From the NCBI RefSeq assembly GCF_009193255.1, contig NZ_WACG01000005.1:1-64000 (forward strand): 64,000 nt of DNA. Reading direction: 5' to 3'. Both the position numbers and the translations under genes were made by a program. The notes beneath the pieces are model-generated. The model did not search any database, had not been told where the DNA came from, and saw only the letters and a program-made list of their open reading frames with translations. Source of the stretch: Arthrobacter koreensis (GTDB lineage: Bacteria > Actinomycetota > Actinomycetes > Actinomycetales > Micrococcaceae). Below, one piece after another: positions 33,335 through 52,370 of the stretch; position 1 is the stretch's first letter; each line of letters starts with the position of its first letter.

Positions 33335-36120
33335 CACCGAACCCCCTGTACTGCGTTCGGCCGGATGCTGCTGTCCGCATGGCCGGCGGTTAGCAGTTTT
33401 GCCAATTCCCTTCGGCTGCCCACGTGGAGCTTCGAGTAGATCTGGTAAAGGTGCCCTTCAACGGTGCGCACCGAAATCGAGAGTTCGGTTGCGATCATCT
33501 TGTTACTGGTTCCGGCCGCTGCCTGTCTGGCGATCACCCGCTCCCGCCCAGTGAGGCCGCGCAGGCAGTCCTCGATTTCGGCGTCGTTCTCCGATTCTCC
33601 GGACTGGAGCCGCCGTGTGCGATGGATGAACCGCACCGTTGCGCGGTCCCCTGCTCCGGCGGCGATTTGCAGGGCACGTTCCCCGGTCTCACGGGACAGC
33701 AATTCGTGTCCTAGGGCCGCAGCGGCGTCGGCTGCCAGCAGCAGCAGCTGTGGGTCGCAGCTTGCTGCACCCTTCGCGTAGTCCTCGCACAGCCGGGCGA
33801 AGCGTCCCTGCAGACCGGATGCTGTGTCGAGCAGCTGCTGCGCCTGGGACAGGTCCCCCAGCCGGACGGCGCCGAGCAGGCTCAGCACGGCGTACGCCCC
33901 GGCGCCGCGTTCCTCATCCTTGGCTGCCATTTCGCTCAGCGCTTCGGCCGAATCGACTGAGCCCAGCACGTTCCCGGCAAGGACGGCGAAGTGTGCTGCG
34001 GTGCGCTGCAGCGCCCACGAAGGCGTGGCAGGAACTGAACCGGCAGTGCGAAGATGCTCTTCTGCCCTTTGATTCTGGCCCTGCAGCGCAGCAGCATATG
34101 CGGCGACGGCGCTGACCGTGTGGAGGAGGCCTCCGGGATCAGAGATTGCAAGCTGGCGGGCGGCCGGGAGCAATCGCGCGGTAGCAGCGGCTCCGCGGCC
34201 TGCGAAGGCATGCAGGACACCTTCGCAGATTTCGTGGAGTGTTCCGCCGAAGCTACCGGCGCCTTCCTTTCCCGTTGCTCGGGCAAGGAACTCGGCAGCA
34301 GAGTCGAGGGCGCCGGAAATCATCAGGACGTGGAGTATTCTGGCCTGCGCCCGGGACGCTTCCCGGGCATCCAGATCCGGCTCTTGGGCATCTGACAACA
34401 AGGGCCAGAGCGCCGCGGCGAGTTCAAGAGCATCGGACTGACGGTCCGTCATGCCCCAGGCAACGCAGAGCCACGAACCCACCAGGGCCCTGAATCCCCT
34501 GCCGTTTTCATCCCCTCGGGCATAGACCCCGGAGAGGAAATCGGCCGCCTGCCCGTACTCGCCGTGCTGTGTCAGGCACCGGGCCCGCGCCAGGATGAGT
34601 TCCCGTTCCAGCTGGGCAGACTCGCCGCGAGCGAGTCCGTCGGCGGCGAGCACGGCAAGGACCTGTTCGGCTTCCTCAAGGCGGGTACTGTGCGCTTTGG
34701 ACGATGAGCCGGCCTCGAACTGCTGCTCCGCCATCGCGCGGCAGCCGGCTTCGGCTTCGACAATGAGCAGGCGCACGGTCTCGGGAGAACGGACACCTGA
34801 CGCACCGAAGGCACGGTGCCGGGTGACGACGTCGGATGTGCCGGCCGCATCTCCTCCTGCCAGTACCGCTCGGGCCAGCTCAAGCACAGCCGCCGGCGAA
34901 GACAGATGGTTTGGATCTGCTGCGATGAACGCCGCGGCTGACAACGGATCACCTTCCGCGTTCGCAGCCCGGGCGGCTGCGAGCGCGAGCTCCGCCGGTA
35001 CTTTGGCACCCGAGGAGAGCAGCCACCGTGCTGCGTGTACCGGACATGAAACCACCGGATCCGGCGGAAGCTTCTCTAACAGTTCCCGTCGCCGGCCGGG
35101 ATCAATCCGCCCCCGCAGAACCATCCCGAGGCCGGGATCAACCAGCGAAAGCGCCGGAACTGTCCTGTGCTCCAGCTGCAACAGCCCCGCCTCCTGAAGG
35201 GCATCTACTTGTCGGCTGTCCACCCGCTCCAGGACCTGGCTGAGCGGCAGTGCACCGGCGAGAGCGAGCACGTCCAGCAGCTCGCGCTGGCCGTCAAGGA
35301 GCCCCGCCAGCTTCGTGCCCATCGCGGAAGCGAGCCGAGGGAAAGCGCACTGCCGAGCCCGGTCCAACACCCAGACACCGTCCCAAGAACGGACCCGGCC
35401 GCTTTCGCGGTAGTCCTCGGCGGCGGCGAGCAGCAGGCTGGGATTGCCGCCGCTGATCCCGGTCAGTTCTTCCGCAGCGGCCCGGCTTACCGGTCCGCGA
35501 AGTTCCGATTCCAGGAGATGGGAACATTCAGGGGGAAGCAGCGGCTCAAGATCCAGACGGGCAAGGAGGCCCTCGCGCCAAAGCCCCATGAACTCGGCCG
35601 GCGCGGCGCTGAAATCCCGGAAGGCTGCGAACATGTGGGCTGACCGGTTCGCCACCATCTGGCTGAGCACCATGGCAGAGAACTCGTCGAGCTCTTCCGC
35701 ATTGTCAACTGCCAGGATGACCTGCCGTCCCTGCGCCCGTTCACGGATCAGCTCGGTCAGACCCCGCAGTATCAGCACCGGGTGCGAAGCGGATTCCGGA
35801 TCGAGCTCGGAGAGCAGGAAAGTCAGGGCACCGAAAGCAGTCCTGCCGGCAAATGCTGAACCGCGGACGTTGACCGTGTAGGCATCCTGCCCGTACAGCG
35901 CCAGTACATGCCGCATGAGGGCGCTCTTACCGCTGCCGGCTTCCCCAATGATCAGGGACCCGGAAGCAGTCGAATCCGGGGTCAGGCACCCGGCCATGGC
36001 CTGGACAAGGGCGGTCCGGCCCAGGAAGGGCGAATCGTGTCCTTGCCGGATGGGAGCGGGCACGCCACCGGCGGTACGCGCCACAAGTGAGTAGGCGTCT
36101 GACGAATGATGCTTCTCCAC
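33334..36120 (-). CDS. LAL-type AAA/LuxR transcriptional regulator (array member 4)
   Basis: A 928-aa regulator. Walker A IIGEAGSGKSALMR is near residue 57-70 and Walker B QVILAVDNAEELDE near 133-146. The shared TAFGALTFLL element is near 94. A long helical sensor region follows. The C-terminal HTH has LTGRERVIARQAAAGTSNKM and SVRTVEGHLYQIYSKLHVGS, so it belongs to the VEGH subgroup with members 2 and 5. The start is GTG 36120 with AAGAGG seven bases upstream; an in-frame start at 36141 adds seven residues. It is preceded by a 177-base spacer containing GAGTAG/CTACTC motifs and is translationally coupled to the next LuxR gene. Confidence 0.88.
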   Translation of the reverse strand: MEKHHSSDAYSLVARTAGGVPAPIRQGHDSPFLGRTALVQAMAGCLTPDSTASGSLIIGEAGSGKSALMRHVLALYGQDAYTVNVRGSAFAGRTAFGALTFLLSELDPESASHPVLILRGLTELIRERAQGRQVILAVDNAEELDEFSAMVLSQMVANRSAHMFAAFRDFSAAPAEFMGLWREGLLARLDLEPLLPPECSHLLESELRGPVSRAAAEELTGISGGNPSLLLAAAEDYRESGRVRSWDGVWVLDRARQCAFPRLASAMGTKLAGLLDGQRELLDVLALAGALPLSQVLERVDSRQVDALQEAGLLQLEHRTVPALSLVDPGLGMVLRGRIDPGRRRELLEKLPPDPVVSCPVHAARWLLSSGAKVPAELALAAARAANAEGDPLSAAAFIAADPNHLSSPAAVLELARAVLAGGDAAGTSDVVTRHRAFGASGVRSPETVRLLIVEAEAGCRAMAEQQFEAGSSSKAHSTRLEEAEQVLAVLAADGLARGESAQLERELILARARCLTQHGEYGQAADFLSGVYARGDENGRGFRALVGSWLCVAWGMTDRQSDALELAAALWPLLSDAQEPDLDAREASRAQARILHVLMISGALDSAAEFLARATGKEGAGSFGGTLHEICEGVLHAFAGRGAAATARLLPAARQLAISDPGGLLHTVSAVAAYAAALQGQNQRAEEHLRTAGSVPATPSWALQRTAAHFAVLAGNVLGSVDSAEALSEMAAKDEERGAGAYAVLSLLGAVRLGDLSQAQQLLDTASGLQGRFARLCEDYAKGAASCDPQLLLLAADAAAALGHELLSRETGERALQIAAGAGDRATVRFIHRTRRLQSGESENDAEIEDCLRGLTGRERVIARQAAAGTSNKMIATELSISVRTVEGHLYQIYSKLHVGSRRELAKLLTAGHADSSIRPNAVQGVR

Positions 36121-36202
36121 TGCGAGACCTCTTCCTAGCAAACCGTCTGTGCCCGCGGCAGCAGGCGTTCAACACACTAGGTAGGAGGTGGGGAACCAGC
36201 CT

Positions 36203-36272
36203 GAGTAGCAACCACCAGTAATCATCAGCACCTACTCGGGTTACACCAGTGTGATTTGGGATCGCTACTTGG
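36203..36272. promoter_or_regulatory. Motif cluster before LuxR member 4
   Basis: GAGTAG (36203-36208) and inverted CTACTC (36232-36237) lie about 29 bases apart, the latter inside GCACCTACTCG, identical to 30133-30143. CGCTACTTGG follows at 36263-36272 and again at 36296-36305, 33 bases later (about three helical turns). Candidate binding sites for one of the array regulators; unproven. Confidence 0.35.
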
Positions 36273-36297
36273 TTCGCCCGCTTCAACGGCACATGCG

Positions 36298-38994
36298 CTA
36301 CTTGGAGTACTGTCCCGGTTCCCCCTTCCGGCTGTCTTTCCCGTCACCGAGCAGGCGCCTAAGCTCAGCGCGTCCAGAGACGTGCAGTTTTAGGAAGATC
36401 CGGCCGAGGTGCCAGTCCACGGTCCTCGGCGATAGGTGAAGTGCACTTCCCAGCCGGGCACTGCTTGCTCCGGAAGCAGCCCGGCGTGCCAGGTCCCGCT
36501 CAAAATCCGACAGCTTCTTCAAACGGCTTTCCAGGCTGTTGGCGTCAGCCAGCATGCGGTAGCACTCGTTCGCCACCATCCGGGCCTGCCGGCTCAGCTC
36601 CCGCCGGCTGGCGTGTTCAGCAGCTTCCCGCGCAGCGACGGCAGCCCGGTATCCGTGCAGGTAGAACCCCCGGTCCAAAAAAGCACCGGCGGCATCATAC
36701 AGATCCTGCGGCGAATTTCCGACGAGGCCGTCGCCGAGTGCCTGCCACATCCGGACGGACTCGCCCTCGCCGGTAGCCGCCGTAGTTTGCAGCATCGCAG
36801 CGGACGATGTGTCGCCGGAGAGTGCGGCGGCCGAGAGGCACAGAATCGCCGCCGGATAATTACCCCGGCGGGCCGCCCGTCGACCCGCTGTCGCAAGCTC
36901 AGCGCCTGGCTGTCCTTCGGCACTAAAGCGAAGGGCGGCGGCCCGCTGGAAATAACGGGTTGCAGTCAGCACATGCGATGCGGGTGCAGCCTTGAAACCC
37001 GGGACCGCGGCGAGGCACTCGGCCATCCGGTCCCAGTCCCCCCGCTCCGCGTGGCAGTAGCCCATGGCCGCGAGTGCCAGCGGCAGCAACCCGCCCCTGT
37101 CCTCCACCTCCAGCTGCCGGCATGCCGGAACGAGGCATTCCAGGGCCGCATCGGTTCTGCCGCACAAAGCATGGATCACTCCCGCCGGCAGCTCCGACCA
37201 TGCGCTCAGATGGGTTTCCAGGTAACGGACTTTTCCGGCCTGGTCCAGCAGCGCAAGTGCCTGCAGCGGCTCAGCGCACAGGATGTAAGTGCACAGGATC
37301 CCGTTCACGGTCTCGGCCCCGACGGTGAGTGGCAGTCCGCGGGCGTGTTTTAAGTTCTCCCAGAGCTCCGCGGCCTCCAGCAGGGCTTCCCCCGCCCTGC
37401 CCTCCAATGCCAGGAGCTGGCAGCGGCTGGCCCTCGCCGGCAGCAGCACAACGGCGGGAACTGTCCAGTCCAGGCAGAGCGCCCCGAGTTCTGCCGGCGC
37501 CAACGCCGGGTCCGACTCGAGCGCGGCGAGTGCGGCCCGTGCAGCAGTCACTTGCTGCTGTGATTGGGTCCGCAGTGGTTCCGGCAGGGACTGCGCAGCA
37601 GTCTCCGCGCGGGCCAGTGCTGCCTGCGGCGACAGCCGCGGTGAGGACACCCTCCGTGCCACCATGGCCAGCTCCAGTAGCGCCGGTACAGCGTTTGCGG
37701 AATCGCCAGAATCCAGGAGCTGCTCCAGCTCTGCTGCGGCTTGTTTCAACTCCTGGAGGGCGTGCAGTGCACGCGCGCGTTCGAGTCGGAGCCGTGGATG
37801 CGTTCCAGAAGCCTGAACGGCGCCGGCTATCCGCAGCGCGCCGGCTGGGTCTGCCTCCCTGTTCGCCGATGCACAGGCACGGGCTGCCAGCTCGGCGCTG
37901 ATGGGACTACCTGCGTCCGCAGCCCACAAAGCGTATGCCTTGGCCGCTGCGTCCGGCCAGGTCTCGGGATCCAACCCTGCTGACTGCAGCTCCTGCCAGA
38001 GTTCGAAGAAGTGGCCCATGGGTACCCGCTCAGCAACCAGCTGAGTGTAGAGCGGGTTGAGGAGATATACCGATCCTTCGCCGTGGCTTACAGTCAGCAC
38101 GCCCCGTTCTTCGAGCGCTTCAACGGATAGGGCATCTGCCACGTCCAGCAGGGCGCGCAGCGGCATCCCGGGACACAGCGACACGAAGTCCACGATTCGC
38201 TGCTCGCAGATGTCCAACTCCTGATACCACGCTTCAATCCAGTCCGAAATCTCGCCTCGGAAAGTCAGCGGACCCTCGAGGGTCCAAATTCCGCTGCGTT
38301 CCTTCAGCCGCCCGCCGTCCATCTGGTCACGGCACAGCAATGAGGTAAACAGCGGGTTTCCCCGTGCCTGGCGCCACAAGGCATGTGCCGCCAAGGCAGA
38401 CAGTTTGCCGCCGGTAATCCCTTCAATGAGCGCTAATGAAGCTGCGGAATCCAGCGGCCCCAAGTCGATCCTGCGAATCATTCCCTCGGACCACAGCCGC
38501 ACCAGTTCCTCACCGCAGCGCAGCAGATCCGGTGTAGTGGCGAGCAGTGCGGCCGAGGTCTGACGCGTCAGCTGGACCAATGCGGTCTGGCTCAGCGCAT
38601 CGAGCTCATGGACGTTATCTACGAGCAGCAGGGTCCGCCGCCCGCTGGCCTGTGCCGCCAGGTGTTCCTTGAGCGCACGCAGGACGTGCCCCGGATTTTC
38701 AAGAGATGTCTCCGGCATTTCGCTGAGCACCCAGGCCAGCGCCCCGTAGGCCGTTCCGGCAGAGACCCTGCTGCCCCGCACGTGCACTACGTGAAAGTCC
38801 TGCCGGGCCGCTCGGGCTGCAGCATTGGCCAGTGTTGTCTTGCCAATTCCCTCCGGGCCGACAATTACGGCGCCGCCGTTGGACTCGATGGCGGAGACTG
38901 CCCAGCGAAGTTCCTCCGACCGTCCGACCAGCCGGGTCTGTGCCCCGGGGTCCGCCCGGTCTCGGTATAGGGGTAGGGGTGGTGCAGAGCGCAT
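36298..38994 (-). CDS. LAL-type AAA/LuxR transcriptional regulator (array member 3)
   Basis: An 898-aa regulator. Walker A IVGPEGIGKTTLANAAA is near residue 44-60 and Walker B TLLLVDNVHELDA near 121-133. TAYGALAWVL is near 81. The middle is a long helical region. The C-terminal HTH has LSDFERDLARRAASGASSAR and SPRTVDWHLGRIFLKLHVSG, the VDWH subgroup shared with member 1. The helix before the recognition helix (SSARLGSALHL) departs from the usual K/N-x-I-A pattern. It stands alone between spacers of 177 and 244 bases, unlike the two overlapping pairs around it. ATG 38994 follows GAGGCGGG, about six bases away. Confidence 0.88.
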   Translation of the reverse strand: MRSAPPLPLYRDRADPGAQTRLVGRSEELRWAVSAIESNGGAVIVGPEGIGKTTLANAAARAARQDFHVVHVRGSRVSAGTAYGALAWVLSEMPETSLENPGHVLRALKEHLAAQASGRRTLLLVDNVHELDALSQTALVQLTRQTSAALLATTPDLLRCGEELVRLWSEGMIRRIDLGPLDSAASLALIEGITGGKLSALAAHALWRQARGNPLFTSLLCRDQMDGGRLKERSGIWTLEGPLTFRGEISDWIEAWYQELDICEQRIVDFVSLCPGMPLRALLDVADALSVEALEERGVLTVSHGEGSVYLLNPLYTQLVAERVPMGHFFELWQELQSAGLDPETWPDAAAKAYALWAADAGSPISAELAARACASANREADPAGALRIAGAVQASGTHPRLRLERARALHALQELKQAAAELEQLLDSGDSANAVPALLELAMVARRVSSPRLSPQAALARAETAAQSLPEPLRTQSQQQVTAARAALAALESDPALAPAELGALCLDWTVPAVVLLPARASRCQLLALEGRAGEALLEAAELWENLKHARGLPLTVGAETVNGILCTYILCAEPLQALALLDQAGKVRYLETHLSAWSELPAGVIHALCGRTDAALECLVPACRQLEVEDRGGLLPLALAAMGYCHAERGDWDRMAECLAAVPGFKAAPASHVLTATRYFQRAAALRFSAEGQPGAELATAGRRAARRGNYPAAILCLSAAALSGDTSSAAMLQTTAATGEGESVRMWQALGDGLVGNSPQDLYDAAGAFLDRGFYLHGYRAAVAAREAAEHASRRELSRQARMVANECYRMLADANSLESRLKKLSDFERDLARRAASGASSARLGSALHLSPRTVDWHLGRIFLKLHVSGRAELRRLLGDGKDSRKGEPGQYSK

Positions 38995-39121
38995 GGGATT
39001 CCCGCCTCAAGGTATTGAGCCTGGAACCGAGCGTAAAGAGAGGCAGTCCCTCCGCCAACACGTAGTCGTTACTGGCTTTGGACCACTTGCCGCCGGCTGC
39101 CGGGCACACCGAACACCGCGA

Positions 39122-39149
39122 CTACTTGGGGACGGAGAGTACCTACCCG
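39122..39149. promoter_or_regulatory. Motif pair before LuxR member 3
   Basis: CTACTTGG (39122-39129) and GTACCTACCCG (39139-39149) lie in the 244-base spacer before the gene starting at 38994. The first matches 36265-36272; the second matches GCACCTACTCG at nine of eleven positions. The order of the two elements is reversed relative to the other spacer. Confidence 0.3.
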
Positions 39150-39238
39150 TCCCGCGGGTGCAGCTACCGGACGGGGTGTGCACGCCGGATACACGCCCCG
39201 CCGCACGGAGGAAAGCCTGCCCATGTGACTCGCGGGGA

Positions 39239-41932
39239 TTACTCCCCCATCAGTTCAGCGGTGAGTTCCTCACGCCTGCTGATGCCGAGTTTTTCGAAGA
39301 TTCGATAGATATGGCCCTCGACGGTTCGCACGGAGAGGAAGAGCTGACCGGCTATCTCCGCGTTGCGGTACCCCCTGGCAACCAGCCCCGCGACGTCCTT
39401 CTCCCGGCGGGTCAGGGCAGGCGCGGCAGGGCTGCGTCCAGGCTCCGCGGCTGATTTGCCGATCATCCGCTGGACCCGCTGGAGCTGGGCCCGGTCGCCC
39501 GCCGTCTTGGCGATTCGGAGGGCCTCCTGCAGGGCAAGGGGCCCAAGGGCACCGGCATCGGCATCCGCCGGCTCTGACGCGAACCTTACGAGGGCCGATA
39601 CGTCCTGGTCCAGGACCGACCTGGCGAACACGTTCACGGCCCGTCCCCGCGGGCCCTGGATATCCTCGGAAAGCTTGAGCAGGCGATTCATGACAGTCGG
39701 ATCACCGGCCCTCATGCTCAGGCAGCGCAACTCGAATTCAGCCGTGGGAAGGCCATGCTCTTCAGCCTGCTCTCCGACCTCGCGCAGTGCAGCCAGCACC
39801 TTTGGATCTCCGGTCCTGGCATATCCTGCCGCCAGCCGGTTGCCCCTTGCTATGAACCTGGTGCTGAGGGTTCCGCGCGGAGGAACCCTGTCACAGTCGG
39901 CCAGCAGCTCGTCCGCCCGGTCCAGGTCTCCTGCGCCCGCATCCAGCTGGGCTGCGATGGTGAGGGCCACGGGCAGGTTGCCGTCCGGGTCATGGGTACG
40001 CATTCCCTCGATCGCAGCCATCAGCTTGGGCAGCGCCGCCTCCATGTTCCCGCGGCGCAGCTCCATGACGGCTAGGCACATATCCACGGTGCCGCCTACC
40101 CGCAGTGAACTCCGCGACACCGCCAGCAGGTCCTGGTGGACGGTGCTGAGGACCTCGTCCCAGTAGCCGGCCCACAACAGGGCCGACAGATGACGATGCA
40201 GGACGAACTGGTAGTACATAAGGAACCGGTGCTCGCTGTGGGCTACTATCCCCAGCGCCTCCCGGGTGAGTGTCACTGCGATTTCCGCTCGTCCGCTGCA
40301 GGAGTGGATTTCCCCCAGGATCGCCAGGGACACCATCACCGCTTCAGCATCCCCCGCCTGCCGGGCCTGGGCCAGCAGGTCCCGGACCGGCGCCTCCATG
40401 CCGCGGTGGTTACCCGCGGACACTTCAATCAATGCTTCCAGGAGTAATGCTCCGCGCCATGATGAGTCGAGGTCAGCCCTCAGCTCTCCGTCCAGTGTTC
40501 CGGAAGACTCCGCTGCCGTCTCAATCCGCCGGATCGCGGCTTCCCAGGCCGCACGTGCTTCCTGCAGCCCGTCCACCTCGCCCGTGAACCGCTGCAGCAG
40601 CTGCACGCGCAGCAGCGTGCCCAGTTTCGCCGTCGTCAGGTCCGCGGCGGTTTCGACTGTTCCGCTCACCAGTTCCCAGGCGGCATTGAAGTTGGCGCGG
40701 TTGTAGTGGGCACGGGCCTTCTGGATCCTCGCGGCTGGCAGCAGGGCCGGATCCTTCACTTCGCCGGCGGCGCGGAGCGCGAAATCACTGTCGAAGAAGT
40801 TGTTTGCCATATAGGCCGCCCGCAGCAGCTGGGCCTCCGGAACCGCGGCTCCGCAGTCCAGGGACCAGCCGACGCTTCGCAGCAGCCCGTCCATCGATTC
40901 CATGTCATCGGGCATGACTTCCTGGACCCGCTGACGCAGCCGGGCGCTTCGCGCTGCTGGAACCATGTGCCGCACCAGCTGGCCGTACAGCGGGTGCCGC
41001 GGCCGCAGCAGCCTGTTGCCTTCGTCCTCAACGCTGACCAGGTTTGCCGCGGTCAGGGCGTCAACCGAGCGGTGAAGACCGAGTTTGAAGGCGACCGCCA
41101 CCGGTAACGGTTCCGCGAGCGCAATGATCTCCATTGCCTCCCGCTCTGCGCTGGAAAGCCCCGAGAGGTGCGCCTTCAGCAGGTCTGCCAACCGCCCTTC
41201 GGGCGGACCGGCGTTGTTTTCCATGAGCCACACGCCGTGGCGTTCGGTCAGCGCCCCGCCCTTGCGCGCCTCAGCGACCAGCGCCAGCACGAACATGGGG
41301 TTCCCGCCGCTGCGGCTCGCAAGCTCGGCGCTGGTGGTGCTGAGCACCGGCCCGCCGAGCACCTTGGTGCAGAGTTCCTGGACCTGCGTTTCGGTCCACG
41401 GCTGAAGCTGGTGCCGTGAGATGGCGCCGCTCCATACCTGGGCCGGGATGCCTGCCGGGATGTCAGTGATGCTCCTGGTCAGCAGCAGCATCCGCACCCG
41501 TCCCGACGCCATCAGCTGGGACAGCAGGTCGGCACTGGCTTCGTCCAGGGCGTGTGCGTCGTCAACCACCAGCAGCGGCGCGGGACTGGCGTCCTGTCCC
41601 CCTGCGGGGCGCACTCTTCCCAGCAGTGCACGCATGACCGCCAGCGGAGAGTCAGTCTCATCTGCGGAGAGCACGGGCAGCAGCGGCGCGAGGGCACCGA
41701 ACGGAATACCGGTCAGCGCTGAGCTGGCATGTATACGGAATACCGGCAGCTCACGTTCGAGTTCACGGACGACGGCGTTAGCGAGTGCGCTCTTGCCCAT
41801 CCCTGCCTCTGCCACCAGCAGGGCGCCGCACAGTTCCCCCGAGCGCAGGTCGGTCAGGACCGCCTGGAGGTCGGCCTCGCGGCCAACGAGCTGCTGTGTT
41901 GCAAAACCCTGCATTTTCTCCCCAAACCTCAC
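39239..41932 (-). CDS. LAL-type AAA/LuxR transcriptional regulator (array member 2)
   Basis: An 897-aa regulator. Walker A LLVAEAGMGKSALANAV is near residue 38-54 and Walker B PLLVVDDAHALDE near 119-131. IPFGALAPLLPVL is near 76. The C-terminal HTH has LTRREKDVAGLVARGYRNAE and SVRTVEGHIYRIFEKLGISR (VEGH subgroup). It overlaps the stop of member 1 by GTGA, so the GTG at 41932 is plausible. An in-frame ATG at 41914, three bases after GGGGAG, is the alternative and would remove six residues. Effector and targets are unknown. Confidence 0.88.
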   Translation of the reverse strand: MRFGEKMQGFATQQLVGREADLQAVLTDLRSGELCGALLVAEAGMGKSALANAVVRELERELPVFRIHASSALTGIPFGALAPLLPVLSADETDSPLAVMRALLGRVRPAGGQDASPAPLLVVDDAHALDEASADLLSQLMASGRVRMLLLTRSITDIPAGIPAQVWSGAISRHQLQPWTETQVQELCTKVLGGPVLSTTSAELASRSGGNPMFVLALVAEARKGGALTERHGVWLMENNAGPPEGRLADLLKAHLSGLSSAEREAMEIIALAEPLPVAVAFKLGLHRSVDALTAANLVSVEDEGNRLLRPRHPLYGQLVRHMVPAARSARLRQRVQEVMPDDMESMDGLLRSVGWSLDCGAAVPEAQLLRAAYMANNFFDSDFALRAAGEVKDPALLPAARIQKARAHYNRANFNAAWELVSGTVETAADLTTAKLGTLLRVQLLQRFTGEVDGLQEARAAWEAAIRRIETAAESSGTLDGELRADLDSSWRGALLLEALIEVSAGNHRGMEAPVRDLLAQARQAGDAEAVMVSLAILGEIHSCSGRAEIAVTLTREALGIVAHSEHRFLMYYQFVLHRHLSALLWAGYWDEVLSTVHQDLLAVSRSSLRVGGTVDMCLAVMELRRGNMEAALPKLMAAIEGMRTHDPDGNLPVALTIAAQLDAGAGDLDRADELLADCDRVPPRGTLSTRFIARGNRLAAGYARTGDPKVLAALREVGEQAEEHGLPTAEFELRCLSMRAGDPTVMNRLLKLSEDIQGPRGRAVNVFARSVLDQDVSALVRFASEPADADAGALGPLALQEALRIAKTAGDRAQLQRVQRMIGKSAAEPGRSPAAPALTRREKDVAGLVARGYRNAEIAGQLFLSVRTVEGHIYRIFEKLGISRREELTAELMGE

Positions 41933-44535
41933 TCTGCGGAGCGGAAAGCATCCCGCAACTCAGTTCTTCCCGACACGTGCAGCTTCCGAAACAGTTTGTT
42001 CAGGTGCCAGTCAACGGTGCGCGGCGAGAGGCGCAGCTCCTCCGCAATGTGGTTCCTGGACGCTGTCCCGGCTGCTAGCCGCACCAACCGCGCGTCGAAG
42101 TCGCTGAGTCCTGCCAGCAGGTTCTCCATGGTGTTTTCCCGCAGGAGCCTGCGGTACGCAGCATTCTCCACAGCGGCGGCGCGGCGGGCTATGCTGCCGC
42201 CGCCGGCCGCAGTCATGGTGCGGACCATGCCCGCGGCGTGGTGGGCCAGCAGATGGTGGCCCAGCTGTGCAGCCCCTTCGGCAGCTTCCAGCAGGACCCA
42301 GGGGTCGCTGCTGAGCAATCCCTTGGCGTAAGAGCCCAGGGCCTCGGCCCATCGTCCCGTCGCGGTGGATGCCAAGCGCCCCAGGTGCGCTGCTGCGGCC
42401 AGGTCTCCCCTCGTGGCAGCAGCTTCGTAGCAGCCCAGGGCGAAGGAAACGTTTCCAAGGGCTTCTGCGTCCTCCGCCATCTGCACCAGGCTGCGTGCTG
42501 CGGTTTCCCTCTCCCGGCCCTGCCGGGCAAGTATCCGGAAGAACTCCGTGACTCGTGCGGCATGCCAGAACGGACGGTTGCGGAACCGCGGCGCGAGCTT
42601 CTGGTAAATGCCGGCTCGGGCGGCGTTTCCGCTCAGCCCGTGGGCGTAGGACAACAGTGCTGCGGCAAGGGGAAGCAGGTCCTGGGGATCCCGGTACCGC
42701 AGCTGGCTCACTGCCGGTTCGAGTGCCTCGACGGCGGCGTCGGATTCTCCGGCTGCCGCACGGACCACGCCCCAGACCAGCTCGCCGGCGGTCCCGCGGT
42801 AGGCACCATCAGTGCCGTCGGTGTTGTCGCGGATAAAGCGGAGTGCGCGCTCCAGGTCGCCGGCAGCGTAGAAAGTGTAAACGAGGCGGTTGAGGATAAC
42901 ACCCTGGTCCGGTGCCGGCAGCGGAGCACGCAGCACTTCCCGGTGTTCTTCCACCAGGCGCAGTGCTGCCCTGGCGTCACCGGTCACCGCAAGGGCTTCA
43001 GCTGCGGCCGCTGCCGCCAGGGCGCGTGTCCTGACCGCTATGTCCCGGCGGCGGGCCAGTGCTGCCAGGGGCTGAACGGCTCCAGCGCAGTTTCCTTCAG
43101 CGAGCTGGAGTTCGGCCCTGGCGTAGTCGATTTCAGCAGAGATGTGGGGGGTGTCGGCAACGCCGGAAGGAAGGTCCAGGCTGTCCAGGACCCGGGCCGG
43201 GTCATCCGACTTCGAAATGCTGCGCAGCAGCGCAGCCTTCTGGATCATGACGGCAACCCAGGTGTCCCGGTTGTCCGGATCCAGTCCGGCTTCGGCGGCC
43301 GTCAGGACGCTAAGGGCTTTCTGGTTCTCCCCCAGTGCCATAAGTGCCCGGATCTCCTCGAGGACCAGACCGTCCTCACGGCTCCCGGGCACGGCCGAAC
43401 CAACAATCTCCAGTGCCAGGGACTGCTTGCCGGAATCATTGGCATACGCAGCGGCCCTGCGGAGAAGCCCGGGGCCAGGATCCGTTTGGCAGTCCAGCGA
43501 CCATGTGACGAATCCGGCCAGCGCGGCGGGGGCCAGGCTTCCCGGGTCCTGAAGAACCTCCGTCAGTTCCTTCCACAGCTCATGGCTGCGGCCCAGCCGC
43601 ATGTTGGCAGCCACCACCGAGGCAAAGAGCGAGTTCGACAGCATCACGGCCGGCTGTGTACCGCGTTCCAGCATCACCGTGCCGTTTTCTTCCAACGCAT
43701 CCACTGTTTCCGCAGGCACCAGCTGCAGAGCCGTGGCCAGCGGCAGCGGACTAACCCGGGAGAGGACTTCGACCAGTTTGCGATGCTCTGCGGGTAACCT
43801 GGCCAGCTGCGTATCAAAAAGCTCCGCAACGGCCCCGGTGTGCACATAGGCCCCGGCGCGGACCCAGGTATGGTCGGAGAGGACCAGCCGGCCCTGCCGC
43901 ACCTGCTCAGCTGTCATCAACAGGGTAAAGTGCGGATTGCCGCGGGTCTCCGCCCACATGCTCCGCGCCGCAGGTTCAGAGACCGCCCCGCTGAGGAACC
44001 CCTCCATCAGTGTCCGGGTTTCGGCTTGGCCGAGGGGCTCGACGTCGACCCTCACCAGGTGCCCCTCCGCCCAGAGCGACAAGACTTCCGGTTCAGCCTG
44101 CACCAGGTCCGTGGCCGTGGCAGCAACCGTGGCTTCCCCACCCCGCACCAGCTGGGCGATGACCTGCACCGAAAGCTCGTCGAGTTCATCGACGTCGTCA
44201 ATCACCAGCAGCAGCGGCAGGCCGGCGGCCCGTGCGCGCAGGAGCCGGCGTACTTCGTGGAGCGCGGTCACAGGATTCAGTCCTCCGGCCAGAGGCAGCT
44301 CGCTCAACAGCGGCGCCAAAGCGCCGTAGGGGGTGCGCCGCGAAACCCTTGTGCCGTACAAGGCTTCGATCCGGTGTCCCCGGGCGCGGTCGGCCAGGGC
44401 CTGCACCAGGGCGCTCTTGCCAATTCCCTGTGGCCCGGCGATGAGGGCCCCCCGCCCTTCCGCCAAGGCAGATTCCATGCGTCCAAGGAGAGCGTCCCGG
44501 CCCACAAGTCCCGCCAATGGCCTGGGCAGCCTCAT
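41929..44535 (-). CDS. LAL-type AAA/LuxR transcriptional regulator (array member 1)
   Basis: An 868-aa regulator, the first gene of the array in the direction of transcription. Walker A LIAGPQGIGKSALVQAL is near residue 31-47 and Walker B LLLVIDDVDELDE near 108-120. TPYGALAPLLSEL is near 68. The C-terminal HTH has LSDFDARLVRLAAGTASRNH and SPRTVDWHLNKLFRKLHVSG (VDWH subgroup). No ribosome binding site is visible before ATG 44535, so it may be leaderless or start elsewhere. It is coupled to member 2 by a GTGA overlap, which pairs one VDWH-type with one VEGH-type protein. Confidence 0.87.
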   Translation of the reverse strand: MRLPRPLAGLVGRDALLGRMESALAEGRGALIAGPQGIGKSALVQALADRARGHRIEALYGTRVSRRTPYGALAPLLSELPLAGGLNPVTALHEVRRLLRARAAGLPLLLVIDDVDELDELSVQVIAQLVRGGEATVAATATDLVQAEPEVLSLWAEGHLVRVDVEPLGQAETRTLMEGFLSGAVSEPAARSMWAETRGNPHFTLLMTAEQVRQGRLVLSDHTWVRAGAYVHTGAVAELFDTQLARLPAEHRKLVEVLSRVSPLPLATALQLVPAETVDALEENGTVMLERGTQPAVMLSNSLFASVVAANMRLGRSHELWKELTEVLQDPGSLAPAALAGFVTWSLDCQTDPGPGLLRRAAAYANDSGKQSLALEIVGSAVPGSREDGLVLEEIRALMALGENQKALSVLTAAEAGLDPDNRDTWVAVMIQKAALLRSISKSDDPARVLDSLDLPSGVADTPHISAEIDYARAELQLAEGNCAGAVQPLAALARRRDIAVRTRALAAAAAAEALAVTGDARAALRLVEEHREVLRAPLPAPDQGVILNRLVYTFYAAGDLERALRFIRDNTDGTDGAYRGTAGELVWGVVRAAAGESDAAVEALEPAVSQLRYRDPQDLLPLAAALLSYAHGLSGNAARAGIYQKLAPRFRNRPFWHAARVTEFFRILARQGRERETAARSLVQMAEDAEALGNVSFALGCYEAAATRGDLAAAAHLGRLASTATGRWAEALGSYAKGLLSSDPWVLLEAAEGAAQLGHHLLAHHAAGMVRTMTAAGGGSIARRAAAVENAAYRRLLRENTMENLLAGLSDFDARLVRLAAGTASRNHIAEELRLSPRTVDWHLNKLFRKLHVSGRTELRDAFRSAE

Positions 44536-46575: not shown

Positions 46576-47559
46576 CTAAGCCTTGCCGTCGAAGAGGCTC
46601 GTCACGGAACCGTCTTCGAAGACCTCGCGGATGGCGCGGGCGATCAGCGGAGCGATAGAGAGCACAGTGAGCTGCTCGAAGCGCTTGTTGACCGGGATCG
46701 GCAGCGTGTTCGTCACTACGACTTCGCGGGCACCGGACTCGGCCAGGGTGCGGGCAGCCGGGTCGGAGAACACGGCGTGCGTCGCGGCGATGATGACGTC
46801 CTTTGCCCCGGCTTCCTTGAGGACGCGCACGGCGCCGGCAATGGTTCCGCCGGTGTCGATCATGTCATCGATCAGCACGCAGGTGCGGCCTTCGATCTGG
46901 CCTACAACCTGCTTGGAAACAGCCTGGTTGGGCACTGTCAGGTCGCGGCTCTTGTGCACGAAGGCCAGCGGAGCGCCACCCAGGCGCTCGGCCCACTGTT
47001 CGGCAACGCGGACGCGGCCGGTGTCCGGGGAAACGACGGTGACGTTCGAAACGTCCACCCGGGTCCGGATGTAGTCGGCAAGCAGCGGGATCGCCATCAG
47101 GTGGTCAACGGGGCCGTCGAAGAAGCCCTGGATCTGCGAGGTGTGCAGGTCCACGCTCATGATGCGGTCCGCTCCGGCGGTCTTGTACAGGTCTGCCACC
47201 AGGCGGGCGGAGATCGGCTCGCGTCCGCGTCCCTTCTTGTCCTGTCGCGCGTACGGGTAGAACGGGGAGACCACGGTGATGCGCTGGGCCGAGGCACGCT
47301 TGAGCGCATCGATCATGATGAGCTGTTCCATCAGCCAGTTGTTCAGCGGTGCCGGGTGTGCCTGGATGACGAAGACGTCCTTGCCGCGGACGCTCTCTCC
47401 GGGACGCACGTAGATCTCGCCGTTGGCGAAGTCATAGGCAGCGAGCGGCAGCAGTTCGGTGTCGAGGCACTTGGCCACTTCCTCCGCCAGCTCAGGGTGT
47501 GCCCGTCCCGTGGCTAGGACAAGCCTTTTTTCACCTTGTGCGGTGATTACGCTGCTCAT
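46576..47559 (-). CDS. prs: Ribose-phosphate pyrophosphokinase
   Basis: A 327-aa cytoplasmic enzyme that makes PRPP from ribose-5-phosphate and ATP for nucleotide, His and Trp synthesis. The Mg/ATP region DRIMSVDLHTSQIQGFFDGP and the PRPP-binding loop TCVLIDDMIDTGGTIAGAVR are intact. The flexible-loop motif KKGRGREPISARLVADL is present. The length is standard. ATG 47559 overlaps the glmU stop by ATGA, so the two are coupled, an arrangement conserved in many Gram-positives. A 29-bp hairpin follows. Confidence 0.96.
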   Translation of the reverse strand: MSSVITAQGEKRLVLATGRAHPELAEEVAKCLDTELLPLAAYDFANGEIYVRPGESVRGKDVFVIQAHPAPLNNWLMEQLIMIDALKRASAQRITVVSPFYPYARQDKKGRGREPISARLVADLYKTAGADRIMSVDLHTSQIQGFFDGPVDHLMAIPLLADYIRTRVDVSNVTVVSPDTGRVRVAEQWAERLGGAPLAFVHKSRDLTVPNQAVSKQVVGQIEGRTCVLIDDMIDTGGTIAGAVRVLKEAGAKDVIIAATHAVFSDPAARTLAESGAREVVVTNTLPIPVNKRFEQLTVLSIAPLIARAIREVFEDGSVTSLFDGKA

Positions 47560-49073
47560 GACTGTTCGCTTTCTCGCGTGGGGTTATCAGTACCGGAGAG
47601 GGAAGTCTGTGTCTGGGCGCGCCCGGCGGCCTCCGCTGCAGCGGAACCGGGGCGGTTGGCCGCCACCCAGTTTTCGAGGTTGCGCTGGGGCGCCACGTTG
47701 ATGGCCAGCGAGCCCGCCGGAACGTCCTTGCGGATCACCGTTCCAGCTCCACTGTACGCCCCGTCCCCTACCGTGACGGGCGCCACGTACATGTTGTCGC
47801 TGCCCATGCGAACGTGCGATCCAACCGTGGTGTGGTGCTTCTTTTCGCCGTCGTAATTGACGAAAACGGAGGCGGCGCCGATGTTCGAGTGCTCGCCGAT
47901 GGTGGCATCCCCCACATAGGAAAGATGCGGAACCTTGGAGCCGGTGCCGATCTGCGCGTTCTTCGTTTCCACGAACGTGCCGATCTTCCCGCGCTCACCG
48001 AGGTGGGTGCCCGGGCGCAGGTAGGCAAAGGGTCCGACGTCGGCACCCGCGCCGATCACGGCGTCGGATCCGTGGGTGCGGATCACCTTGGCGCCCTCGC
48101 CGATGACCACGTTGGTGAGGGTCGTATCCGGGCCGACGACGGCGTCGCGCGCCACCGTGGTGGTGCCGTGGAGCTGGGTGCCCGGCAGGATGGTGACGTC
48201 TTCGTCGAGGGTGACGGTCGAGTCGATCCAGGTCGTCGCCGGGTCGACGATGGTGACGCCGGCGCGCATCCAGCTGACCAGGGTGCGGCGGTTGTGCTCG
48301 GCGTTCAGTGCTGCGAGCTGAACCCGGTCATTGGCGCCTTCGACCTGCCACTGGTCGGTTGTCTCCACTGCCGCCACGCGCCCGCCGGCTGCCCGGGCGA
48401 TGGCCAGGACATCGGTCAGGTACATCTCGCCCTGTGCGTTGTCCGTGCTGACCCGGGACAGGGCAGAACGGAGCACGGCGGCGTCGAAGGCATAGATGCC
48501 GGAGTTGATTTCGTTCACGGCCAGCTGCTCGGCAGTGGCATCCTTCTGCTCCACGATGCCGGTGACCGTTCCGTCCCCGGCGCGCAGCACCCGGCCGTAG
48601 CCGGTGGGGTCCACAACCCGGGCGGTGAGCACGGTGACAGCGTTGGAGTCCACGTTGTGGACGGCCACCAGCTCGCGCAGGGTGCCCGCTTCCAGCAGCG
48701 GAACGTCGCCATAGGTCACCACGACCGTCCCCTCGAGCGGGGTCAGGGCGTCAATGGCCTCGACGGCGGACTGGACGGCGCGGCCGGTACCGGGAACCTC
48801 GTCCTGGTCCACGATCATGGCGCCGGGCATCAACGAGGCAATGTGGTCCGCGACCGTTTCGCGTTCGTGGCGGACGACGACGGCGAGGGTGCGCGGGCGC
48901 AGGGCTTCCGCTGCGTTCAGGGCGTGTCCCACCATGGAGATGCCGCCCACGGGATGGAGGATCTTTGGCGTGCGGGACTTCATTCGGGTACCTGCTCCGG
49001 CTGCGAGGACGATGACCGCAGCTGGTGCGGTGCCTTCGTTTGGTCCGGTTCCCTGCGTATCCTGCATGCTCAC
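47556..49073 (-). CDS. glmU: Bifunctional GlmU uridylyl/acetyltransferase
   Basis: A 505-aa enzyme that acetylates glucosamine-1-phosphate and couples it to UTP, giving UDP-GlcNAc for peptidoglycan and surface polymers. The N-terminal pyrophosphorylase domain (about 1-245) has VIVLAAGAGTRMKSRTPKIL. The C-terminal left-handed beta-helix (about 265-475) has the hexapeptide repeats and NYDGEKKHHTTVGSHVRMGS with the acetyltransfer His. A Ser/Thr-rich tail extends beyond residue 480. The start is GTG 49073 with AGGAG nine bases upstream. It is coupled to prs. UDP-GlcNAc from here could also feed the nearby polysaccharide locus. Confidence 0.96.
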   Translation of the reverse strand: MSMQDTQGTGPNEGTAPAAVIVLAAGAGTRMKSRTPKILHPVGGISMVGHALNAAEALRPRTLAVVVRHERETVADHIASLMPGAMIVDQDEVPGTGRAVQSAVEAIDALTPLEGTVVVTYGDVPLLEAGTLRELVAVHNVDSNAVTVLTARVVDPTGYGRVLRAGDGTVTGIVEQKDATAEQLAVNEINSGIYAFDAAVLRSALSRVSTDNAQGEMYLTDVLAIARAAGGRVAAVETTDQWQVEGANDRVQLAALNAEHNRRTLVSWMRAGVTIVDPATTWIDSTVTLDEDVTILPGTQLHGTTTVARDAVVGPDTTLTNVVIGEGAKVIRTHGSDAVIGAGADVGPFAYLRPGTHLGERGKIGTFVETKNAQIGTGSKVPHLSYVGDATIGEHSNIGAASVFVNYDGEKKHHTTVGSHVRMGSDNMYVAPVTVGDGAYSGAGTVIRKDVPAGSLAINVAPQRNLENWVAANRPGSAAAEAAGRAQTQTSLSGTDNPTRESEQS

Positions 49074-49149
49074 GAAAAGGCGCTCCTACACGTTGTCCGG
49101 CCACGGCAGCGGGGCAGTTCCAAGCTTGCGGCGCGGCTGCATCCCAGCG

Positions 49150-49221
49150 TTCCGCCCATAGGATTCGAACCTATACTCCACGGCTCCAAAGGCCGGGGTG
49201 CTGCCGTTACACCAGGGCGGA
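49150..49221 (-). tRNA. tRNA-Gln (TTG)
   Basis: On the minus strand the acceptor arm TCCGCCC pairs with GGGCGGA. The D arm is GTGTAACGGCAGCAC. The anticodon loop CTTTGGA carries TTG at positions 34-36. The T arm ATAGG-TTCGAAT-CCTAT is perfect. The discriminator is A and CCA is not encoded. It lies just upstream of glmU, 77 bases from its GTG, as in related actinobacteria. Confidence 0.93.
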
Positions 49222-49337
49222 AAATGTGTGGCTGATGCCGCACACAAGAGTCCAGTTTGCCATGCCCGAACCCCGCTCCGCGACTCGGTGTCCGGGCGGC
49301 CCGCGGGCCGGCGCGTGCCAGTGCGTAGACTGGGACG

Positions 49338-50432
49338 GTGGCGAGAATAACAACTGCGCGGTCACGGCCGCGTATGACAGGAGTCCAGCGGCGGGCCCAG
49401 CTGATCGGAGTCGCCCGCTCCCTTTTCGCCCTGCGGGGACTTGAAGGCGCGACCATCGAGGACATCGCGGCCGGGGCCGGAGTGTCCAAGCCGGTGGTCT
49501 ACGAACACTTCGGTTCCAAGGAAGCGCTGTATACCGAGGTAGTGGATACGGAGTTCGACCGGCTGCTGGCAGCCATTACGCAGGCGCTGGGCGCCGACGC
49601 GGGCCCCCGGGTGCTGCTGGAACGGGCCGCCTATTCACTGCTCGACTACATTGAGAACCACACGGACGGTTTCCGGATCCTGGTCCGCGACGCTCCGCCG
49701 TCGCAGCCCGAAGGCACCTTCTCAACCCTGCTTTCCCGCATTGCCGCGGACGTTGAGCACATCCTCTCCAAGGAATTCGGCAGCCGCGGCCTGAGCGCGG
49801 AGGTAGGCGGCATGTACGCCCAGATGCTGGTGGGCATGGTTGCCATGACCGGCCAGTGGTGGCTCGATGCCCGCACCCCGGACAAGGCCACCGTGGCCGC
49901 CCACCTGGTCAACCTGTCCTGGAACGGTCTGACCGGACTGCAGAAGGAACCGGCCCTGGGGTACATTCCCGGCGGCGGAGCGCCGCTGGTGCTGACCCTC
50001 TCCGCAGTCCTGGTCCGTGACTCGGACGGACGCATCCTGCTGGTCCGCAAGCGCGGCACCCGGAAGTTCATGCAGCCCGGCGGCAAGCTGGAGGCCGGCG
50101 AGGACTTCCGCACCGCTGCCGCCCGCGAAGTGAACGAGGAACTCGGGCTGGCCGTGGCCCCCGGGGATCTCGCGGACATTGGCCGCTGGTACGGGCCTGC
50201 AGCAAATGAGGCCAACACCTACATCGACGCAGGACTGTTCTCCCTCAACCTCGAGGGACCCCGTGGAACCGGCAGGGCCGTCGTCCCGCAGGCCGCGGCG
50301 GAGATCGAGGAAACGCTCTGGCTCACCCCGGCCGAAGCGTTCGCCCGCAACGACATTTCGCCGCTGCTGCGCGACCATGTGCTGCCCGAGCTGCTGGCCA
50401 CCGAAAGCCCGGCGGCCGGCGTCGACGGCTAG
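49338..50432 (+). CDS. TetR regulator fused to a NUDIX hydrolase
   Basis: A 364-aa single open frame. Residues about 15-205 are a TetR-family regulator: the HTH has TIEDIAAGAGVSKPVVYEHF followed by GSKEALY, and the rest is the helical ligand domain. Residues about 213-345 are a NUDIX domain with a complete NUDIX box (GKLEAGE, seven residues, REVNEELGL), so hydrolase activity is expected. The join (GLQKEPALGYIPGGGAPLVL) is short and Gly/Pro-rich. TetR proteins usually end near 200 residues, so this looks like a true fusion of ligand-sensing and nucleotide-diphosphate hydrolysis. The GTG start at 49338 has only a weak site. It converges on the ABC-F gene across a terminator. Confidence 0.85.
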   Translation: MARITTARSRPRMTGVQRRAQLIGVARSLFALRGLEGATIEDIAAGAGVSKPVVYEHFGSKEALYTEVVDTEFDRLLAAITQALGADAGPRVLLERAAYSLLDYIENHTDGFRILVRDAPPSQPEGTFSTLLSRIAADVEHILSKEFGSRGLSAEVGGMYAQMLVGMVAMTGQWWLDARTPDKATVAAHLVNLSWNGLTGLQKEPALGYIPGGGAPLVLTLSAVLVRDSDGRILLVRKRGTRKFMQPGGKLEAGEDFRTAAAREVNEELGLAVAPGDLADIGRWYGPAANEANTYIDAGLFSLNLEGPRGTGRAVVPQAAAEIEETLWLTPAEAFARNDISPLLRDHVLPELLATESPAAGVDG

Positions 50433-50458: not shown

Positions 50459-50500
50459 ACAGAAACTGCCCGTACCAGCGCTGATACGGGCAGTTTCTGT
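50459..50500. terminator. Bidirectional terminator, 16-bp stem
   Basis: ACAGAAACTGCCCGTA (50459-50474) and its perfect complement (50485-50500) with a 10-base loop, between the convergent TetR-NUDIX and ABC-F genes. The AGAAA/TTTCT ends give T-rich sequence after the stem in both directions. Confidence 0.85.
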
Positions 50501-50513
50501 CATCTGGATGGGA

Positions 50514-52370
<1,857 letters not shown>

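Follow-up and report, generated by a model that had tools for sequence, protein, structure and literature searches.

Does the open reading frame at positions 49338 to 50432 encode a genuine two-domain protein, a TetR regulator joined to a NUDIX hydrolase, and what might the enzyme do for the regulator that carries it? We analyzed the frame within a 64,000-nucleotide stretch of an Arthrobacter koreensis contig (the window), in which the features below bear on the answer.

49338..50432 (+), TetR-NUDIX fusion gene; GTG start, 364 aa, stop included
49404..49541 (+), TetR_N DNA-binding domain, residues 23-68 (Pfam PF00440; pN/pS calculated for residues 20-65)
49575..49937 (+), TetR C-terminal (effector/dimer) domain, residues 80-200 (Pfam PF19344, PF21943; FasR-like fold)
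49953..49988 (+), linker, residues 206-217; length and sequence differ between species, pLDDT <50 at residues 211-213
49989..50387 (+), NUDIX domain, residues 218-350 (Pfam PF00293; Nudix fold)
50082..50150 (+), Nudix box, residues 249-271; catalytic G, E, RE, and EE positions invariant in 29/29
50187..50210 (+), X-loop WYGPAANE, residues 284-291; P287 at +16 from the box
49326..49331 (+), TAGACT, likely -10 element of a leaderless promoter, 6 bases 5' of the GTG
49149..49221 (-), tRNA-Gln (ttg), found by ARAGORN; marker of the syntenic site
47556..49073 (-), glmU, divergent neighbor and synteny marker; named from its translation
50514..52370 (-), ABC-F ATPase, convergent neighbor; Pfam ABC_tran in 2 stretches, the ABC-F class being our reading
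50460..50499 (no strand), perfect 15-base inverted repeat between the fusion gene and the ABC-F gene; read from the sequence

The earlier note on this DNA had described one frame that joins a full TetR protein to a NUDIX domain with a perfect catalytic box, and the domain searches bear this out. TetR_N (PF00440) covers residues 23-68 with 57.2 bits against a cut-off of 24; the two TetR C-terminal models, PF19344 and PF21943, score 33.7 and 32.2 bits (cut-off, 27) and span residues 80-200 and 91-196; and NUDIX (PF00293) covers residues 223-338 with 52.6 bits against 21.1. The Nudix box of the window protein, GKLEAGEDFRTAAAREVNEELGL (residues 249-271), is a strict match to GX5EX7REUXEEXGU. Thus, the first half can be assigned to the TetR family by its helix-turn-helix (HTH) and its alpha-helical C-terminal domain, both over the Pfam cut-off, and the second half can be assigned to the Nudix hydrolases by its fold and box, with predicted pyrophosphohydrolase activity. 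A predicted model of the protein (mean pLDDT, 81; pTM, 0.55) consists of two folded units with a low-confidence join; when it was used in a fold search, the best matches were FasR for the TetR half and Nudix proteins for the C-terminal half.

A single frame in every genome sampled from the genus

We searched a family draw of 395 genomes, 29 of which (the source and 28 others) belong to the source's own genus, g1, one group of Arthrobacter that may hold more species than were sampled. Both halves were matched in all 29 (as two pieces in one of them, G323), and the frame was open through the TetR/NUDIX join in every one of the 29 loci read. The fused proteins, whose carriers include Arthrobacter sp. 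Edens01 and A. gandavensis JCM 13316, align with 74-97% identity to the window protein, and the stops counted within some search matches sit at the C-terminal end, away from the join. Because one open frame is kept in 29/29 genomes, the fusion is no sequencing error. The earlier note had held that relatives with separate genes and a frameshift or sequencing error near 49970-49990 would speak against a fusion; only half of this was found. Separate genes do exist in other genera, where the NUDIX relative stood by itself in all 29 loci read elsewhere in the family, but the frameshift is absent. An artefact of assembly or sequencing that joined two genes would be consistent with the genes standing apart in relatives from other genera, yet we consider it next to impossible, given that the joined gene is present without a frameshift in 29/29 genomes, which come from different species and in several cases hold it in one contig. 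No reversal of the fusion was seen among these genomes; as far as sampled, the fused gene is fixed in the genus. A NUDIX protein with its own start inside the fusion gene was considered and rejected, as the codon of V218 is GTC in 23/29 genomes, GTG in 5, and GTT in 1.

Within the genomes and records searched, the fusion seems to be confined to this genus. Among the matches listed, with five candidates scored per genome, none outside the genus covers both halves without a stop, either in the 395 family genomes or in a class search of 394 genomes. No plasmid record (15 matches listed of 162 records matched) and no phage record (8 listed of 10 matched) covers 80% of the fusion protein. Two apparent candidates were rejected: genome G004, with matches to both halves and three stops, has only a TetR gene at the locus and its NUDIX gene on another contig, and plasmid match H6 (74% of the protein, 26% identity) is, by annotation, a TetR gene plus a carboxyl transferase gene. 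No TetR-Nudix fusion was found in the literature searched, while the architecture may be listed in InterPro already; the Nudix clan review (PMC5389931) does not use the word TetR in its main text. These searches agree with the earlier note's remark that the pair is not a standard architecture. We regard the protein as familiar parts in a new, stable combination, in which the domain combination is new and the parts are ordinary.

Origins of the two halves

Outside the genus, 78 named loci, whose hosts range from Arthrobacter to Streptomyces, Knoellia, and Cellulomonas, hold TetR orthologues 58-75% identical to the fused TetR half. Within the stretch read, a divergent glmU lies upstream of tetR in 45 of these 78 loci, and several Streptomyces loci are without it. 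A NUDIX match lies beside the stand-alone tetR in none of the 78; among 80 loci, only two from genus g1 have one. At 1e-30, the fusion profile used in the class search finds 249 of 394 genomes; the top scorers align through the TetR half only, and some of these matches may be other TetR or NUDIX genes. Judging by these comparisons, the TetR half is an old, widespread actinobacterial regulator, often found beside glmU.

More distant relatives hint at the company that this regulator may once have kept. In seven loci of a family taken to be the mycobacteria and their kin (f11, Mycobacteriaceae), a tetR gene whose product is 47-58% identical is followed by mfd in 7/7 and mazG in 6/7, with glmU on the opposite side in 6/7; mazG was not found in locus L185, nor glmU in locus L186. 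Three genomes of genus g49, taken to be Mycobacterium, encode a TetR protein 56-57% identical in the order glmU (divergent)-tetR-mfd-mazG. In M. tuberculosis, we take Rv1018c to Rv1021 to have the gene order seen in f11. By position and sequence, then, the TetR half can be classed as an Rv1019-type regulator, with Rv1019 itself set beside it by gene order and description. The parts of a review used here describe Rv1019 as a negative regulator of mfd, with a citation to a paper whose title concerns the mfd-mazG operon, and link mfd to the frequency of resistant mutants (PMC9579286). The fusion gene shares with this type the TetR orthologue found in the g49 gene order and differs in two respects: the orthologues read have no NUDIX match beside them, and mfd and mazG lie elsewhere. 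The source genome has mfd on a different contig and mazG at a distance of ∼77 kb (C8:22121 and C9:127538); since neither is adjacent to the fusion gene, the ancestral targets may no longer apply. No ligand of an Rv1019-type regulator was found in the literature searched. The closest solved structure is that of FasR (87 bits by sequence; TM-score to the target, 0.84; ∼32% identity). FasR of M. tuberculosis shares the TetR fold and differs in having no NUDIX domain, and the fusion protein does not reach the NCBIfam FasR equivalog (100.5 bits versus a cut-off of 330).

The NUDIX half has its own relatives. A stand-alone NUDIX protein from genus g8, a neighbor genus in the same family with 9 genomes in the draw, matches 335 of the 395 family genomes at 1e-15 (up to nine candidates scored per genome), the weaker matches perhaps being other NUDIX genes. 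Among the matches listed, each genome of genus g1 has exactly one at this threshold, the fused copy (29/29). Stand-alone relatives in the same family are 54-72% identical. A tree was built from 29 rows of each kind, fused and stand-alone, the stand-alone ones having been selected from 306 non-genus genomes with a match. In it, the fused domains make up one side of a branch with support of 96/87; several of the stand-alone rows have long branches. Twelve of the 29 stand-alone proteins start with V/M-P-x-V/I/L-L (in part of the loci read, the start codon was chosen as the one nearest to the match), and P-x-V-L stands at the join in 27/29 fused proteins, the pattern predicted for read-through from tetR into a complete NUDIX gene with its start. 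Most likely, a NUDIX gene was first placed directly behind tetR; the stop codon of tetR then disappeared, and the linker derives from what had been intergenic sequence.

Genus g8 bears on this history. Seven of its nine genomes have the NUDIX gene; G007 and G085 have neither the NUDIX nor the TetR orthologue. In two genomes, G151 (L241:2755-3390) and G038 (L245), a stand-alone NUDIX gene lies directly behind tRNA-Gln/glmU, the site of the fused gene; in the five others, it is on the glmU contig, divergent to glmU and ∼9, 10, 14, 14, and 37 kb off. No TetR orthologue was found among the matches listed at 1e-20 in the nine genomes, none lies within 1.5 kb of glmU in any of them, and none was found in G062 and G176 when all candidates were scored, the best other TetR reaching 63 bits. 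The presence of NUDIX at the tRNA-Gln/glmU site both with and without TetR implies either a fused or tandem ancestor followed by loss of TetR in g8 or a segment that moved between lineages. Simple common ancestry of the g1 and g8 loci was set aside: the GlmU tree does not join the two genera (0% of bootstraps; the g1 rows are partial, from 17/29 genomes), though an AU test on the NUDIX data does not reject a g1-plus-g8 clade (p 0.26). The GlmU tree thus complicates a simple history of the join. As a side observation, an AAA/LuxR pair lies beside the stand-alone NUDIX gene of G062 and, from translations, is similar to the tandem LuxR-type regulators of the window described below.

What the hydrolase may do for the regulator

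Selection acts differently on the parts of the fused protein. Mean pN/pS over all pairs is 0.131 for TetR residues 13-205 (0.083 for the HTH and 0.150 for the TetR C-terminal part), 0.305 for NUDIX, and 0.738 for the linker, which differs in length and sequence across species in the alignment of the fused proteins. Both domains are under purifying selection; the linker is weakly constrained and drifting. The Nudix box matches the loose pattern in 29/29 genomes of the genus and the strict one (U = I, L, or V) in 21/29; among the non-strict boxes, seven have Met at one U and one has Met there plus Ser for the last Gly. WYGPAANE is invariant in 29/29 fused proteins versus 5/29 stand-alone NUDIX relatives, and the proline at +16 from the box is present in 29/29 versus 13/29. 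Because the catalytic positions and WYGPAANE are both invariant, the NUDIX active site has not decayed after fusion. The fold alignment included 22 of the 28 other fused proteins, 36 stand-alone TetRs, and 9 stand-alone NUDIX proteins. In the effector domain, 36 positions are invariant in the 36 stand-alone TetRs; all 23 fused proteins compared retain 32 of them, and the other four vary in, or differ from, the fused set. In the HTH, 19 of 20 such positions are kept. The TetR effector domain, as judged from these positions, has not been rebuilt after fusion.

The substrate can be narrowed from motifs and neighbors, which permit a guess at its class. No equivalog cut-off that would place the NUDIX half in a substrate family was reached; for MutT (NCBIfam), the score was 24.2 bits against 97.9. 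Stand-alone MutT/NudJ/YfcD-like hydrolases share its fold and box, and the fused NUDIX differs from them in being joined to TetR. CoA pyrophosphatases are recognized by the motif LLTXR(SA)X3RX3GX3FPGG, which occurs in 0/29 fused and 0/29 stand-alone NUDIX proteins; acyl-CoA, a substrate suggested by the likeness to FasR, was rejected as a candidate on this ground. In ADP-ribose diphosphatases, the loop proline is spaced exactly 16 residues from the Nudix box. A proline in the loop downstream of the box is described as common to these enzymes in the part of the Nudix clan review used here (PMC5389931). P287 agrees with the loop rule, a weak pointer to ADP-ribose-type substrates from which we file the domain under no subgroup.

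Two plasmid contexts of NUDIX relatives help here. On a Cutibacterium modestum plasmid (L242:2782-3951), a NUDIX domain ∼45% identical to the fused one is N-terminal to a LOG/Lysine_decarbox domain (TIGR00730) in a protein of 389 aa; it resembles our protein in placing a related NUDIX in a two-domain chain and differs in that the partner is LOG/Lysine_decarbox, not a regulator, and in that the NUDIX domain comes first. A match on a C. acnes plasmid (L244) shows the same arrangement, Pfam having been run on the C. modestum protein only. On a Tsukamurella tyrosinosolvens plasmid (L243:2995-4553), the gene of a NUDIX relative (49%) shares 4 bases with the beginning of an AlkZ/YcaQ-type DNA glycosylase gene. 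The LOG fusion and the AlkZ overlap are two contexts out of many; most stand-alone NUDIX neighbors read in the family are, judging by their translations, transporters or regulators that lack a link of this kind. Nucleoside monophosphates (NMPs) are the compounds on which LOG-type enzymes act, and a NUDIX that sets NMPs free would thus supply such enzymes with substrate. These contexts and the repair link of Rv1019 together suggest nucleotide house-cleaning.

We propose, at about an even chance, that the protein is a conserved Rv1019-type repressor carrying a tethered, predicted active nucleotide hydrolase on a flexible linker, the enzyme not being its sensor. The TetR half would bind DNA as a dimer and repress its targets, ancestrally mfd-mazG-type DNA-repair and nucleotide-sanitation genes, and would leave the DNA on binding the same small ligand as the stand-alone orthologues. 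The NUDIX half would cleave a nucleoside-diphosphate-type compound with release of an NMP, serving as a co-expressed, co-localized house-cleaning enzyme rather than as a sensor. Because the model has two folded units with a low-confidence join and supports no fixed contact, the enzyme would be carried by the regulator and work beside it. The fusion thereby hints at the regulator's pathway: the attached hydrolase may act on, or near, the regulator's ligand, which turns the question of the Rv1019-type ligand into a short list of testable nucleotide compounds, in Arthrobacter instead of pathogens.

The earlier note raised the possibility of a tighter bond, in which the TetR half binds as its ligand a compound that the attached NUDIX domain consumes or produces. 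In such an arrangement, the enzyme would remove or generate the signal and thereby reset the switch. The retention of both halves in one polypeptide in 29/29 genomes with catalytic positions intact, the X-loop, and the +16 proline, the last two invariant here and patchy in stand-alone relatives, all fit such a self-limiting regulator. A nucleotide signal would also suit an Rv1019-type TetR, one of which reportedly represses mfd; the same operon includes mazG, the gene of a nucleotide pyrophosphohydrolase. Yet the effector domain is largely that of orthologues without a NUDIX match in 78/78 named loci (32/36 positions), the closest solved relative, FasR, binds acyl-CoA while the CoA-hydrolase motif is missing from all 29 fused proteins, the linker is weakly constrained, and the two g8 genomes with NUDIX at the same spot and no TetR orthologue found argue against tight coupling; we therefore think the self-limiting arrangement unlikely. 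Improbable, too, is a reader-eraser in one chain, in which TetR would sense a nucleotide-type stress metabolite and induce repair or sanitation genes while NUDIX would destroy that metabolite; if true, it would be a one-component regulator that hydrolyzes its own inducer and has a built-in reset.

Another view, that the domains serve unconnected functions and that chance, or common expression alone, fixed the fusion, draws on the variable linker, on the g8 genomes in which NUDIX persists although no TetR orthologue was found (in two of these genomes, at the site of the fused gene), and on the existence of both as separate genes in other genera. We find such a passive join doubtful in light of the retention of the fusion in 29/29 genomes with no reversal seen and the invariance of the X-loop in the fused clade. 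A known system offers a further comparison: the NrtR family also unites Nudix and a DNA-binding domain in a one-chain regulator (described in the parts of PMC9503650 and PMC6800001 used here), with Nudix N-terminal and HTH C-terminal (PMC6800001), whereas in our protein TetR is N-terminal, NUDIX is C-terminal, and the box is intact. The Nudix domain of NrtR can sense ADP-ribose (PMC6800001, PMC9503650), and the fused NUDIX has an ADP-ribose diphosphatase-type proline in the corresponding loop (PMC5389931), so one could imagine NUDIX as a sensor that binds, e.g., ADP-ribose and controls TetR DNA binding with no need of catalysis. This is very unlikely, however: MsNrtR of M. smegmatis has lost catalytic residues and, in the part of PMC6800001 used here, is described as having a degenerate box and no detected activity, as opposed to the invariant catalytic positions of the fused proteins; an effector domain is already present in the TetR half; and a fixed interface finds no support in the model (pTM, 0.55).

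Gene surroundings and promoter

In the window, glmU, prs, ispE, and ksgA were named from translations, and ribosomal L25 and the ABC ATPase were confirmed by Pfam. The 15-base inverted repeat at 50460-50499 is probably a terminator shared by the two convergent genes. Farther off, at 30614-44535 on the minus strand near rplY, the window contains five tandem large LuxR-type regulators of 868-935 aa with AAA_16 domains.

Upstream of the fusion gene, no conserved operator-like palindrome was seen by eye, and only the -10 and start region are conserved among the columns tabulated. Autoregulation was rejected as a candidate on these grounds, no common palindrome being visible farther up. Dyads outnumber those of a mononucleotide shuffle (131 versus 84; SD, 13), in the other loci as well (473 versus 361; SD, 22), the shuffle ignoring dinucleotides and the adjoining tRNA. 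In the part of a published motif search used here, Rv1019 has an E-value of 1.9E-17, weaker than the authors' cut-off (PMC4482099).

TAGACT or TACACT stands 6 bases 5' of the GTG in 29/29 genomes of the genus, which supports the GTG start and is consistent with a leaderless transcript of the fusion gene. Leaderless transcripts are common in actinobacteria. A -10-like box a few bases before the start codon also seems, by eye, to be present in several actinobacterial tetR orthologues (loci L034-L111 and family f11), so that leaderless starts might be usual for this TetR regulator.
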